Shown in pieces: positions 1,909-14,758 of a DNA stretch of 39,865 nt. Every line of letters begins with the position of its first letter. The first letter of the stretch is position 1. The stretch comes from Candidatus Bathyarchaeota archaeon. GTDB lineage: Archaea; Thermoproteota; Bathyarchaeia; Bathyarchaeales; Bathycorpusculaceae. The notes beneath the pieces are model-generated. The model made no database searches and had not been told where the DNA came from. It worked only from the letters and a program-made list of their open reading frames with translations. The stretch covers positions 1 through 39,865 of the forward strand of contig PIXZ01000010.1 in the NCBI GenBank assembly GCA_003601605.1, given 5' to 3'. The position numbers were made by a program, and so were the translations under genes.

Positions 1909-2487
1909 CTAAGGGGACGCCAGCTTTTTAAGGTCTTCTTCACCTTCTGCGTAGCCAGAAGCTATCAAAACATCGCCCACTTGAATTCTCGTTTCGGGTT
2001 TGGGTCGAACACATCTGTCGCCTCTTCTTATGGCGAGAACCCACATACCAGTTTCCTCTGGAACCTTAGCTTCTCTCAAGGTTTTATTTACGAGTGAAGA
2101 GTTTTCAGATACAGTTACATATGTGATTGTTTCTTCAGCTTCTTCTATAGTAAGTTTTAGCACTGGGTGAGGCTCTATTTCTCTTAATACAACTTCAGCT
2201 ATTTCCGCTGCTGCATCTGCTATTTTTTCAGTTACAACACCTAACCTTATTAGACCCAAGAACCCCTTGGCTTCTTCTTTCTTAAAGCCGCTGGACAACA
2301 CAAGTAATTCAAAATCCGTGTGCAGTTTATCTACGTATTCCTCCAGCTTCTGCACTTCTTCAGCTAGTTCTCTGCTATTCATTAACAACGAGGAATAAGC
2401 CAGATCCATCATCAGTTCGGAAGTGTCTTTAAGCTCAACAAACTTTTCCACAATTTCCTCAAATTTTCGTCTACGCTTTTTAGACAC
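1909..2487 (-). CDS. PhoU-like/RCK_C regulatory protein (copy 2)
   Basis: A 192-residue soluble protein: an N-terminal helical PhoU-like part (about 1-100, with SELMMDLAYSSLLMNSRELAEEV) followed by a TrkA C-terminal (RCK_C) domain from about 108 (SENSSLVNKTLREA, ending VGDVLIASG). RCK_C domains bind small ligands, including c-di-AMP in some bacteria, and gate cation channels. The start is GTG at 2487. The upstream paralogue ends 4 nt away, and the MgtE-like channel lies beyond it, so all three probably form one transcript. By family and position it is likely a regulatory partner of the channel; the ligand is unknown. Confidence 0.88.
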   Translation of the reverse strand: MSKKRRRKFEEIVEKFVELKDTSELMMDLAYSSLLMNSRELAEEVQKLEEYVDKLHTDFELLVLSSGFKKEEAKGFLGLIRLGVVTEKIADAAAEIAEVVLREIEPHPVLKLTIEEAEETITYVTVSENSSLVNKTLREAKVPEETGMWVLAIRRGDRCVRPKPETRIQVGDVLIASGYAEGEEDLKKLASP

Positions 2488-2491
2488 GCCG

Positions 2492-3100
2492 CTAATCCTC
2501 CAGTTTGCGTAGTTTTCCTTTGCAGAGTTCTTTGAATTCTTTTAAACCAGCAGAAGTTCCGCGGGCAATAAGAATGTCATCAATCGCGATTTTTTCGTTC
2601 TCTTTTGGGTCTATTATCCAGTCTTTGTTTCTGCGGATAGCAATTATGTCCACACCCATTCTTGCTGCCAGTTCCAATTCTCCTATTGCTTTTTCAGCTA
2701 AGATAGAATCTTTTGCCACTTTAACTCTCATTAAACGTTCTTCAACTTTTTCGAAAATTTCGCCTACTATAGGGTGTATGCCGATGTTTTGGGTTACTAT
2801 GGCAGCTATATCTGCGGCAGCGTCAGAGATTTTGTCTGCGGCAGACGCTACTGTAGATACACCGGTTAAGGCTTCAGCATCTTTGGAGTCTCTTGCTGCA
2901 AGCATTATTTCCATTTCTAGTAGGTAAGATGAGACATCAACACGGTTTTCAAGCTCTAAAACGTCTTCCGCCAGCTCCCTATCGTTAAAAAGAGCCGCAG
3001 AATATGCTAGGTCTATCATTAATTCTGAAAGGTTCTTCATTTCAAGCAGAAGCTCTCTCACTGATGTTGGGTGATATTCGATTTTTTCGAAGCGGGGCAT
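2492..3100 (-). CDS. PhoU-like/RCK_C regulatory protein (copy 1)
   Basis: A 202-residue paralogue of the next gene, with the same plan: PhoU-like helices (SELMIDLAYSAALFNDRELAEDV near residues 24-46), then an RCK_C domain from about 118 (AKDSILAEKAIGELEL, ending IDDILIARG). It starts at ATG 3100 and lies between the MgtE-like channel and copy 2, all leftward. The two copies share the helix motif and RCK_C signature but differ elsewhere, so they could form a heteromer. Neither has a membrane segment or a nucleotide-binding RCK_N domain, so they would have to act on a separate channel protein. Confidence 0.88.
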   Translation of the reverse strand: MPRFEKIEYHPTSVRELLLEMKNLSELMIDLAYSAALFNDRELAEDVLELENRVDVSSYLLEMEIMLAARDSKDAEALTGVSTVASAADKISDAAADIAAIVTQNIGIHPIVGEIFEKVEERLMRVKVAKDSILAEKAIGELELAARMGVDIIAIRRNKDWIIDPKENEKIAIDDILIARGTSAGLKEFKELCKGKLRKLED

Positions 3101-3169: not shown

Positions 3170-4348
3170 TTATCCTATTAAAAATAGTGCAGCGAGCAAG
3201 GCTATGGTTGTGATGCTGTCGGCTATGGAACTTTCGATAGGGATAACAAAGTTGTCCGGGTCTAAGCCTTTTTGAAACGTTAAAATTGCCACTGCATAAG
3301 ATATTAGGATGATTGCTGCCGCTGCAAATAGGTTGGCTGTTAATAAGAGAGCGGTGAAATTGAGAAAGGTAGAAAACGAAAACATGTTGTTAACAGACAG
3401 TGATAAGGCTGAAAATAGAAGAAACATTATTAGGGACGCTGCCCATGCTGCAAAAATTTGTTTGGAATGGTCTCGTAAGCTAGAAAAAGAAGGTTTAAGC
3501 AAGCCTAATGCAAGTTTTGTTGTCGCCGTAGACCCCACAACAGAACCCACGTCTCCAACAGTGTCAATTAAAGCTGGATAAACAGTGTAAATTTCCTTAC
3601 GCCCCTCTATTCTGTTAAGAACTGTGCCTGTGATGTTAACAATAAAAGCTACAATTACTAATGTGGCGAACGATTCTTTTATTGTTTTAACGAACTCGTT
3701 TTTTCTGAAGTCTCGAATCACTATGTAAAAACTTAAGCATATATGGAACAGTGCAACCAAAACAACAGCATATTTAGAAACGGTGTATAGACTAAGCGTA
3801 AAAATGTAGCATAGCGTTATGAAAATGTCAGCAACAGTTGACATTACTGGATATTGGATAACGTCTGGGTCTAAACCCTTTTTGAAGGTTGTAAAACCAA
3901 CGCCCATTGTGAAAAAAGAAAGAACCAATCCAAAAGTCATGGTGGAAACAACAACAGCAAAAATATCAAAAAATCCTGTAGGAGAAACCTCCCAGAAAAA
4001 GCTGCCAAAAAGCATCGAAACGCCGCTCATAACAATGCTGGTTTCCAAAGTTATAACAATCACCGCATCAAACAACGCGTAAAAAGTTTTGGTGTTTCCA
4101 AAAAATTTTGGATAAATGGTACCTAAGTGCAATGCTGTGCCTAAACGCCCACTAAACAATCCGCTTATCATTCCCCGAGCACTTAAAATGGCAGGGTAAA
4201 CCGCTATAGTCCATGGGTATAATTGGAAAATGTTAAAGTAGTAAGCCACAAAGAAACCAGCTAATATGCCGCCAAAGTCGAAGGAGTAAGCCATTAAGGC
4301 TTCTCGAAAGGTCTTAGAAAATGCTTGGGAATTTTTAGAATTTGTCAT
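3170..4348 (-). CDS. MgtE-like divalent cation (Mg2+) transporter, membrane domains only
   Basis: A 392-residue integral membrane protein of the MgtE/SLC41 type. It consists of two homologous halves with the signatures KKGLDPDVIQYPVMSTVAD and QKGLDPDNFVIPIESSIAD, the acidic pore and hinge pattern of the family, each with about five hydrophobic helices. Bacterial MgtE has a cytosolic N-domain and CBS pair that sense Mg2+. Both are missing here, and the two PhoU/RCK_C proteins downstream may take over that gating role (inference). The start is ATG 4348, with GGGGAGG about 11 nt upstream. The ATGA at the start overlaps the stop of a short upstream ORF. Confidence 0.88.
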   Translation of the reverse strand: MTNSKNSQAFSKTFREALMAYSFDFGGILAGFFVAYYFNIFQLYPWTIAVYPAILSARGMISGLFSGRLGTALHLGTIYPKFFGNTKTFYALFDAVIVITLETSIVMSGVSMLFGSFFWEVSPTGFFDIFAVVVSTMTFGLVLSFFTMGVGFTTFKKGLDPDVIQYPVMSTVADIFITLCYIFTLSLYTVSKYAVVLVALFHICLSFYIVIRDFRKNEFVKTIKESFATLVIVAFIVNITGTVLNRIEGRKEIYTVYPALIDTVGDVGSVVGSTATTKLALGLLKPSFSSLRDHSKQIFAAWAASLIMFLLFSALSLSVNNMFSFSTFLNFTALLLTANLFAAAAIILISYAVAILTFQKGLDPDNFVIPIESSIADSITTIALLAALFLIG

Positions 4349-4521
4349 CGGCTAAGAGCCTCCCCTTCCTTTTGAAGCATCAAAAAATAATAATCAGAGA
4401 AAACTTCGGTGGGAAAACAGAAATTGTTTAGTTTAGATACGGCAACATTTTGAGGGCTCTCTATCTTGGGCAACCGTGTTGAACAGCGGAGTTTGTTGTG
4501 CGTAATGTTGGCTAGCCTCAT
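4345..4521 (-). CDS. Short ORF overlapping the mgtE start (candidate leader ORF 2)
   Basis: A 58-codon frame beginning MRLANITHNK at ATG 4521, with AAGGTG 6 nt upstream, and ending in the TGA of an ATGA that contains the start of the MgtE-like gene. The arrangement is that of translational coupling. I recognise no domain. It overlaps leader ORF 1 in another frame, so at most one of the two is likely to be well translated at a time. It could equally be chance. Confidence 0.3.
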   Translation of the reverse strand: MRLANITHNKLRCSTRLPKIESPQNVAVSKLNNFCFPTEVFSDYYFLMLQKEGEALSR

Positions 4522-4615
4522 CTTGTGCACCTTCTGAACTTTCTATTCCTTCACCCATCCATACACACCTCTTGGATATCGCTTGTTTCAGTGAGCCCTC
4601 AAGCTCCACTCTCAT
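4433..4615 (-). CDS. Short ORF at the 5' end of the mgtE transcript (candidate leader ORF 1)
   Basis: A 60-residue frame starting MRVELEGSLK at ATG 4615. It has a complete set of signals: AGGAG 5 nt upstream and a TATA-like TTATTTAAGG about 35 nt upstream of the start codon, which would give a leader of about 15 nt. It contains KRCVWMG but no known domain. It ends 84 nt before the MgtE-like start. The position suggests a regulatory leader peptide, but no homologue is known to me. Confidence 0.4.
   Translation of the reverse strand: MRVELEGSLKQAISKRCVWMGEGIESSEGAQDEASQHYAQQTPLFNTVAQDREPSKCCRI
4450..4602 (-). repeat. Inverted repeat enclosing the mgtE leader (possible structured RNA)
   Basis: TTGAGGGCTC at 4450-4459 and its exact complement GAGCCCTCAA at 4593-4602 could pair as a 10-bp stem around 133 nt of leader RNA. 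The enclosed segment contains the overlap of the two short ORFs and the second ORF's ribosome-binding site. The stem lies inside leader ORF 1, so translation of that ORF would open it. Whether it folds this way was not calculated. Confidence 0.4.
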
Positions 4616-4650
4616 TTTCGCTCCTAAACCCTAGAGAGTGATACAAAATT

Positions 4651-4660
4651 CCTTAAATAA
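4651..4660 (-). promoter_or_regulatory. TATA box of the mgtE operon
   Basis: TTATTTAAGG on the minus strand, the only good archaeal TATA-like element between the short gene at 4747 and the MgtE-like gene. A start site about 25 nt downstream would fall near 4630, just before the Shine-Dalgarno of leader ORF 1, leaving a leader of roughly 280 nt ahead of the transporter. Seen by eye only. Confidence 0.5.
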
Positions 4661-4746
4661 GTTTCCAACAATGCTTACACAAAATCCATATTAAGAATTC
4701 ATAACGGTTTTAATTTTCCAGATTCTAACCCCTTCTTGTCTAAAAG

Positions 4747-4923
4747 GTGAAAAACTTGTATACAGCATGGATAAAAATTGACGAAACTCTCCCATGGATT
4801 GAAATACAAAGAGATTATGCTACAAAGAAAGAAGCGAAAAAAGCAGCAAAAAAAGTGCTAAGCAACGCAAAAATCAAAATCGCAAAGATATCAGCCACAA
4901 CAAAAGTTTCACGCAAAAAATAG
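4747..4923 (+). CDS. Small basic protein of unknown function
   Basis: A 58-residue frame, KNLYTAWIKIDETLPWIEIQ followed by an Ala/Lys-rich helix and a basic tail ending KVSRKK. A beta-strand pair followed by a helix is plausible. The start is either GTG at 4747 or TTG at 4756; the latter has AAGGTGA 5 nt upstream and would give 55 residues. Codon pattern and lack of stops support a gene. It is convergent with the glycosyltransferase to its right. Function unknown. Confidence 0.55.
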   Translation: MKNLYTAWIKIDETLPWIEIQRDYATKKEAKKAAKKVLSNAKIKIAKISATTKVSRKK

Positions 4924-14630: not shown

Positions 14631-14758
14631 CGCCGGGGAAGGGATTCGAACCCTTGCGAGCCCGAAGGCCCACTGGCTTACTTGTTCATTTTCAGCCCCT
14701 TTTGTACAAAGCTTTTTGGATCTCGAGGCCAGCGCGTTAACCACTCCGCCACCCCGGC
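14631..14758 (-). tRNA. tRNA-Ser(CGA) with anticodon-loop intron
   Basis: Reading the minus strand from 14758: acceptor GCCGGGG pairs with CCCCGGC (14638-14632), discriminator G at 14631. The D-arm region is TGGCGGAGTGGTTAACGCG. Anticodon stem CTGGC/GCCAG closes a loop with anticodon CGA at 14725-14723. The long variable arm (TGGGCCTTCGGGCTC) makes it type II, and GGTTCGAATCC is the T loop. Removing the intron gives an 85-nt tRNA. CCA is not encoded. It reads TCG codons. It lies just downstream of the nucleoside phosphorylase on the same strand. Confidence 0.95.
14679..14721 (-). other. tRNA-Ser intron, about 43 nt, position 37/38
   Basis: Between G37 (14722) and A38 (14678) there are 43 extra nucleotides, beginning ATCCAAAAAG and ending ACAAGTA. 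This is the canonical archaeal site, cut by the tRNA splicing endonuclease at a bulge-helix-bulge. The exact ends are set by the need for a 7-nt loop and could shift by one base. Confidence 0.85.

Follow-up and report, generated by a model that had tools for sequence, protein, structure and literature searches.

An acidic, overlapping upstream ORF before mgtE in Bathyarchaeia: a probable translational gate and candidate Mg2+ sensor

Bathyarchaeia are an archaeal group known mostly through metagenomes. The stretch of DNA analysed here (hereafter the window; 39,865 nt of contig PIXZ01000010.1, assembly GCA_003601605.1, Candidatus Bathyarchaeota archaeon) carries a gene for the Mg2+ transporter MgtE, the only mgtE copy in this genome. 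No match to CorA was found in the genome assembly, which is 80% complete, and CorA is present in only 34 of 101 related genomes, so that MgtE seems to be the principal route of Mg2+ import in this lineage. Directly downstream of mgtE lie the genes of two tandem PhoU+TrkA_C proteins (1909-3100, minus strand), which probably serve the transporter as cytosolic partners or regulate it. On its other side, a divergent small ORF (4747-4923, plus strand, 58 aa, YTAWIKIDETLPWIEIQ...) is separated from mgtE by a box, AATTAAAACCGTTATGAATTYTKAATATG, at about 4683-4720; ORF and box are both conserved in four relatives (loci L031, L032, L033 and L035 in our numbering) and in others, and the region is likely a divergent promoter or a regulator site. 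Elsewhere in the window, a tRNA match at 14631-14758 (minus strand) spans 128 nt and therefore probably contains an intron. The gene and its leader comprise the following features, in the direction of transcription:

4653..4660, minus strand: TATA-like box TTATTTAA, by direct reading
4613..4630, minus strand: S1, the conserved box GGTTTAGGAG with ATG 4615, the start put forward by the initial annotation
4593..4602, minus strand: 5' arm of the stem proposed in the initial annotation; real sequence, unsupported as a part of the device
4566..4571, minus strand: Shine-Dalgarno site of S2, GAGGTG
4433..4558, minus strand: uORF1, 41 aa, MGEGIESSEGAQDEASQHYAQQ..., with an acidic N-terminus; it overlaps S3 and runs 86 nt past it
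4528..4533, minus strand: Shine-Dalgarno site of S3, AAGGTG
4345..4521, minus strand: uORF2, the relay ORF, 58 aa, MRLANITHNK...EALSR; it starts at S3 inside uORF1 and ends on the mgtE start
4450..4459, minus strand: 3' arm of the proposed stem; likewise real sequence, unsupported as a part of the device
4359..4365, minus strand: Shine-Dalgarno site of mgtE, GGGGAGG, by direct reading
4345..4348, minus strand: ATGA overlap of the uORF2 stop and the mgtE start, by direct reading
3170..4348, minus strand: mgtE, Mg2+ transporter of 392 aa with two MgtE domains (PF01769, E=5e-23, in two stretches)

The TATA box that the initial annotation placed 5' of mgtE was borne out at 4660-4653, where the aligned relatives keep TTAAG or TTTAAG, and a transcript start about 20-25 nt downstream of it, just 5' of the GGTTTAGGAG box, is implied. 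The same annotation described a 60-codon ORF with a good ribosome-binding site. This ORF is present (4615-4433), but its best start is the internal ATG 4558 (S2), served by GAGGTG at 4571-4566. The GGTTTAGGAG box is strongly conserved in the family, the S1 ATG itself is often TAA/TAG or GTG in relatives (L031, L105, L123, L126, L138), and S1 is doubtful as a start codon. The Shine-Dalgarno site of S2 is better and far more conserved than that of ATG 4615; GAGGTG, GGGGTG, GGAGTG or GGAGG stands 5' of S2 in most loci, and in the window genome the motif occurs once, at S2. Because S1 is often destroyed, S2 is kept and a stop codon closes the frame just 5' of ATG 4558 in five relatives (L012, L028, L030, L091, L113), ATG 4558 and not 4615 is the best-supported start of uORF1 on comparative grounds. 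The second overlapping ORF of 58 codons was found as described, with its ATG at 4521 (S3) and with its stop overlapping the mgtE start as ATGA at 4348-4345. AAGGTG, AAGGCG or AGGGTG is conserved just 5' of S3, and the use of GTG 4530 instead would give a uORF2 of 61 aa. The Shine-Dalgarno site of mgtE is AAAGGAGG-like in relatives.

Two further observations concern the mgtE start in other lineages. Eleven loci of genus g12 (L094, L099, L101, L109, L110, L117, L119, L128, L137, L146, L151) carry AUU, AUA or AUC at the homologous position, after a good GGAGG site and in place of AUG, GUG or UUG, which suggests a conserved non-canonical start codon of mgtE in this genus. In other classes of the phylum, a (T)ATGGGGCAAYAT element is conserved 5' of the mgtE start in nine loci (L192, L193, L195, L203, L205, L206, L208, L209, L210), and three more (L200, L202, L204) have it as ATGGGGAGT. 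The element can be read as a minigene MGQ(H)*, the stop of which often overlaps the probable mgtE start, and it is possibly another leader device.

To place the window leader among its relatives, the leaders of 124 distinct mgtE loci, drawn from 151 genomes of relatives and from GTDB contigs, were assembled, with mgtE loci from other classes added later. A hidden Markov model iterated from six leaders recovered uORF1 homologues in 50 upstream fragments, and the element extends over families of the same order and reaches a second class, there in a single family (L170-L179, MGEKEETEGATDETHQHS). The conservation of either ORF or of the stem pairing in relatives had been named in advance as the test of the annotation's reading; both ORFs proved to be conserved as open frames, together with their overlap, in many families including that of the other class, and the coupled-ORF reading stands on this architecture of open frames and overlap.

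In all of the 49 loci compared, uORF1 overlaps S3 out of frame and its frame stays open beyond S3 for 50-131 nt; the standard deviation is 18 nt, against 63 nt under Markov resampling, in which a mean of 17 loci and a minimum of 9 ended before 50 nt. In the gamma-frame control, 17 of the 38 loci of the window type (architecture B, described below) ended before 50 nt, versus 0 of 38 for the uORF1 frame. uORF1 is probably translated, from 4558. Its C-terminus is hypervariable. The S1-S3 stretch differs at codon positions 1/2/3 by 58/44/51 over 12 pairs, with no third-position excess, and has mostly lower synonymous divergence than mgtE; within it, most pairs show stronger nucleotide conservation in the S1-S2 stretch (4560-4625, minus strand) than at mgtE's synonymous sites, again without a codon signature. 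In this pairwise comparison of codon positions, codon-level selection in the uORF1-only stretch was weak to absent, and the closest pair, the window and L033, looks codon-like for uORF1 when taken alone. A conserved 60-aa protein was accordingly rejected as a description of uORF1, the amino-acid conservation of the first codons following nucleotide conservation. Several loci (e.g. L165, L011, L103, L108) also contain a mini-ORF of basic composition (MDGRKRGKPRGWTR*, MEHGKKPAKPRRRKR*), which lies in the third frame and stops exactly on the TGA within the ATGA of S3; it was set aside as a third ORF of the device, being broken in the window (MDG*) and in many other loci, and is treated as a shadow of the purine-rich Shine-Dalgarno site.

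What lies beyond S3 divides the leaders into two architectures. In architecture A, mgtE itself starts at S3 and is overlapped directly by uORF1, so that the C-terminus of uORF1 is an out-of-frame reading of mgtE; architecture B, to which the window belongs, has uORF1 followed by uORF2 and then mgtE. The mgtE start of A loci (protein MKLAN) is the same GATGARGCTAGCC site that begins uORF2 in B loci. Since A loci use S3 for mgtE, several of them having no other plausible mgtE start, S3 is established as a real start. In B loci the uORF2 frame is open from the uORF1 stop to the mgtE start in 31 of 38, where 13.9 were expected, and the other two frames are open over the same span in 2/38 and 0/38; in several of the non-open loci the uORF2 frame ends beside an upstream in-frame mgtE start. 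In most B loci uORF2 either overlaps mgtE by 4 nt or stops no more than about 20 nt away from the mgtE start, and in a distant clade (L144, L152, L161) uORF2 shrinks to 12-13 codons that still end next to the mgtE start. The sequence of uORF2 is hypervariable, with 105/100/111 differences at codon positions 1/2/3 summed over 12 pairs, compared with 78/47/192 for the first 50 codons of mgtE, and these 12 pairs reveal no amino-acid constraint in its interior. The codon-level selection that the initial annotation had suggested looking for in the ORFs was therefore absent in uORF2, as it was weak to absent in the part proper to uORF1. Openness without protein constraint is what a frame serving only termination-reinitiation should look like.

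A tree of 85 MgtE proteins showed A and B each clustered, yet repeatedly interchanged; A requires 10 changes and B 13, of which well-supported branches force at least 6 and at least 9, respectively. Gains or losses of uORF2 have therefore happened several times, with the uORF1/S3 junction kept. Judged by these patterns, what selection retains is the open frames, the start sites, the overlap and the acidity of uORF1, and not the detailed sequence.

The linkage of this arrangement to mgtE was measured by a strict automatic rule that uses no homology. It asks for an ATG uORF with a Shine-Dalgarno site, 13-61 nt 5' of a start, in the +1 frame to that start and extending at least 45 nt past it, and the overlapped start must enter mgtE or relay to mgtE. 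The rule picked out 61 of 122 mgtE loci (34 A, 27 B), 8 of 122 when applied in the alternative frame, 4 of 276 control genes from these same contigs, of which none has a comparable acidic cluster, and 0 of 30 corA loci. Fisher's test gave P 2e-32 for the enrichment, a value that overstates independence, the loci being related. About half of the mgtE loci fall outside the rule; some have GTG or TTG starts or were missed, and others have different leaders.

The peptides that begin at S2 are acidic, with 4.5-5.4 D/E against 0.6-1.9 K/R in residues 2-16, counts for which S3 was set by hand in some distant loci, a step that the strict rule avoids. The window uORF1 has five acidic residues and no basic one in this interval, and with 3 acidic residues in its first 11 (MGEGIESSEGAQDEASQ) it compares with the weakest of the known destabilisers. 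A conserved acidic core, MGEsegSEGGQDEASQ, runs across the 50 uORF1 fragments, with MDGSDADDDDQHS, MGEDECDDGSQ, MAGSDDDDHP and MDNGDISDGEEDESDQQS as examples of S2 peptides, and peptides that are not alignable to the window's uORF1 are acidic too (MDSEGEEDASG, MGREKEDFEDVQDEG, MEGESDGDPER). The acidity is partly forced by the code, because ATGA in the +1 frame reads D-D/E and GGTGG reads Gly-Gly. Over 15 alpha-frame codons, mgtE leaders have 4.6 acidic and 1.3 basic residues, compared with 2.6 and 2.6 in the open shadows of SD-ATG sites of other genes (P=2e-8); against ATGA-only shadows (3.4 acidic, 2.7 basic) the excess is modest (P=0.004, the loci being non-independent). Asp/Glu codons near the N-terminus are thus present above the expectation from ATGA shadows.

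The initial annotation had enclosed the uORF2 start in a 10-bp stem, and the perfect inverted repeat 4593-4602/4450-4459 does exist and is unique and fairly strong in the window. A perfect repeat of at least 10 bp arises in 16 of 251 window tiles and in 4.5% of the sequences made by first-order Markov shuffling of the region, and the stem is gone in L031, L032 and L033, the three relatives nearest to the window. The covariation sought in the relatives' leaders did not appear, there being no group-level pairing of the arms in 35 relatives (mean P 0.46). The own-versus-cross permutation gave P 0.06-0.18 for the stem arm, and two neighbouring arm positions with P 0.002-0.009, uncorrected among 18 tests, were not counted. 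Counterparts of the stem occur in L009 (12 bp) and L156 (9 bp). As a conserved part of the device, the long-range stem was rejected as a marginal chance event. Riboswitches, including the M-box, were likewise rejected: with relaxed thresholds, Rfam models matched neither the window leader (E up to 5) nor the loci of 20 relatives, apart from microRNA matches in L206 below gathering scores. No conserved fold over S3 or over the Shine-Dalgarno site of mgtE was found in the leaders.

Taken together, these comparisons make a functional overlapping-uORF gate with coupling at mgtE very probable, and translation of uORF1 probably decides whether MgtE is made. By analogy, the leader may plausibly sense Mg2+ in the manner of bacterial leader ORFs, because uORF1 is acidic like mgtQ and sits at mgtE, with few counterparts among the control genes and none at the 30 corA loci. 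Previous studies showed that nascent chains rich in D/E at the N-terminus abort translation in bacteria and in factor-based yeast and human systems, and that added Mg2+ relieves this abortion in the yeast and human systems (PMC9718836). In Haloferax, genes that overlap by ATGA are strictly coupled (PMC6728339), and reinitiation falls to near nothing by ~20 nt (PMC10666635).

The comparisons support the reach of uORF1 past S3, the passage from S3 to mgtE directly or via a relay kept open, the linkage to mgtE and the acidity of uORF1, and from these we infer a working model. A ribosome starting at S2 (4558) would translate the acidic uORF1 and pass over S3 (4521), occluding it; with S2 only 16-40 nt 5' of S3, the two initiations would also compete. 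At high Mg2+, uORF1 would be read to its stop, and the ribosome would end 50-150 nt beyond S3, too far to reach back, leaving S3 unused. At low Mg2+, the acidic nascent chain would loosen the ribosome (intrinsic ribosome destabilisation), and abortion would free it at or near S3, so that S3 could be used and MgtE would rise as Mg2+ drops. In architecture A, use of S3 would start mgtE directly; in architecture B, it would open uORF2, a relay indifferent to sequence, from which the ribosome would be passed to mgtE by termination-reinitiation at the ATGA. We know of no demonstration of intrinsic ribosome destabilisation in archaea. The model does not need the nucleotide conservation of S1-S2. A full Mg2+-responsive translational gate on MgtE, with Mg2+ as the presumed signal, is about an even bet; for the particular reading of an archaeal ribosome-based Mg2+ sensor, in which the stability of the ribosome on an acidic uORF would choose between read-through and an overlapping out-of-frame start, with a relay ORF in about half of the device-bearing lineages, we put the probability at roughly 0.4.

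The main rival keeps the anatomy and drops the sensing. uORF1 and uORF2 would then be a constitutive brake that holds MgtE synthesis low or even, the acidity of uORF1 a by-product of reading the SD-ATGA sequence in the +1 frame, and all the anatomical evidence fits this account equally well, as does the acidity that ATGA-only shadows already possess. We nevertheless hold it to be rather unlikely, considering that the mgtE leaders exceed those shadows in acidic residues and are depleted of basic ones, that acidic clusters recur in peptides not alignable to the window's, and that the device stands at mgtE and at none of the 30 corA loci. A further reading is that of chance ORFs in a spacer. Short ORFs commonly arise by chance and the single-genome stem is marginal, but the openness, the end points, the overlap and the control comparisons exclude this explanation, to which we assign a negligible probability.

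A sensor made of RNA, in which a hairpin between S1 and S2 would hide the Shine-Dalgarno site of S2 (or the S1-S2 stretch would pair with a distant arm, as the initial annotation proposed) and Mg2+ would shift the fold, draws on the codon-position pattern and low synonymous divergence of S1-S3. In one clade a hairpin over this site pairs in register in 94.7% of cells versus 31-43% when slid, and the own-versus-cross pairing of -42..-26 with the site gives P=0.001 in 17 tests. The covariation of this hairpin, on the other hand, is not above shuffles (89/500), for which it was rejected as a part of the device; the window leader folds worse than its shuffles (z=+1.6), minimum free energy has z of about 0 in 29 leaders, and with the lost long stem and the Rfam result this makes such a sensor unlikely. 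Functional microproteins, for example small regulators of MgtE or Mg2+-binding peptides, could explain the acidic core conserved across the fragments. They appear very unlikely, since uORF2 lacks amino-acid constraint and the uORF1-only part a codon signature, the C-terminus of uORF1 varies freely or is mere out-of-frame mgtE, architecture A has no uORF2 and one clade a uORF2 of 12-13 aa, and there is no Pfam or NCBIfam match.

The nearest parallel to the acidic-uORF sensor is mgtQ of Salmonella, in which Asp2 and Glu5 promote mgtB translation (PMC8092293). In both leaders a short ORF with a strong Shine-Dalgarno site and early Asp/Glu codons stands just 5' of a Mg2+ transporter gene to which it is linked, and the abortive translation proposed to promote transporter translation at mgtQ (PMC8092293) is proposed here at mgtE. 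The two differ in build: mgtQ has 8 aa, does not overlap mgtB and remodels a stem-loop over the mgtB ribosome-binding site (PMC8092293), whereas the uORF at mgtE overlaps the next start out of frame, may use uORF2 as a relay and shows no conserved fold that hides a ribosome-binding site. Nor is there homology between them, the transporter being a bacterial P-type ATPase there and an archaeal MgtE here. The ATGA overlap, or the very short distance from uORF2 stop to mgtE start, recalls archaeal termination-reinitiation pairs (PMC6728339, PMC10666635); in contrast to those pairs, the upstream place is taken not by a protein gene but by a hypervariable relay frame that itself begins inside another ORF.

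In the mgtL leader of mgtA, translation of the leader ORF is inverse to transporter output and senses intracellular Mg2+, and the leader acts via RNA structure on Rho-dependent transcription termination. To our knowledge archaea are without Rho, and the mgtL/corL mechanism is not applicable to them as such. The corL/corA leader (PMC11552253) would share with the mgtE leader the inverse relation of leader ORF translation to transporter output and the sensing of intracellular Mg2+; corL acts via RNA structure on Rho-dependent termination, and no such fold is seen at mgtE. The M-box (ykoK) riboswitch and the M-box/uORF leader of Mtb (PMC12810186) are likewise cis leaders of Mg2+ transport or stress genes, with the uORF of Mtb downstream, and differ from the mgtE leaders, which contain no M-box or other Rfam family. 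In vertebrates, two conserved uORFs in the 5'-leader of TRPM7 jointly repress this Mg2+ channel at high Mg2+ and permit its synthesis at low Mg2+ (PMC4227784). TRPM7 thus resembles architecture B in having two conserved uORFs before a Mg2+ transport gene, and differs in belonging to eukaryotic mRNA and initiation, in sharing no sequence, and in a Mg2+ response demonstrated by experiment, compared with the presumed one of mgtE.

In the literature searched, largely without subscription journals, no archaeal Mg2+ sensor at the level of RNA or translation, no regulatory uORF 5' of an archaeal metal transporter and no account of the mgtE device was found. The architecture is directly testable, since a reporter allows separate changes to the acidic codons, to S2, to S3 and to the frame of uORF2. 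The relay uORF2, selected for its openness and end point and not for its sequence, would be a clear example of a frame retained only for coupling. If the sensor reading is true, each of the three domains would use ribosome stability on leader ORFs as a Mg2+ gauge, one that arose independently at transporters of unrelated kinds, namely bacterial MgtB/MgtA, vertebrate TRPM7 and archaeal MgtE. Because both the feature that sequesters a ribosome-binding site and a riboswitch are missing, the mgtE leader lies outside the mgtQ and riboswitch families; it would work like mgtQ and the TRPM7 uORFs, and belongs to none of the families described.
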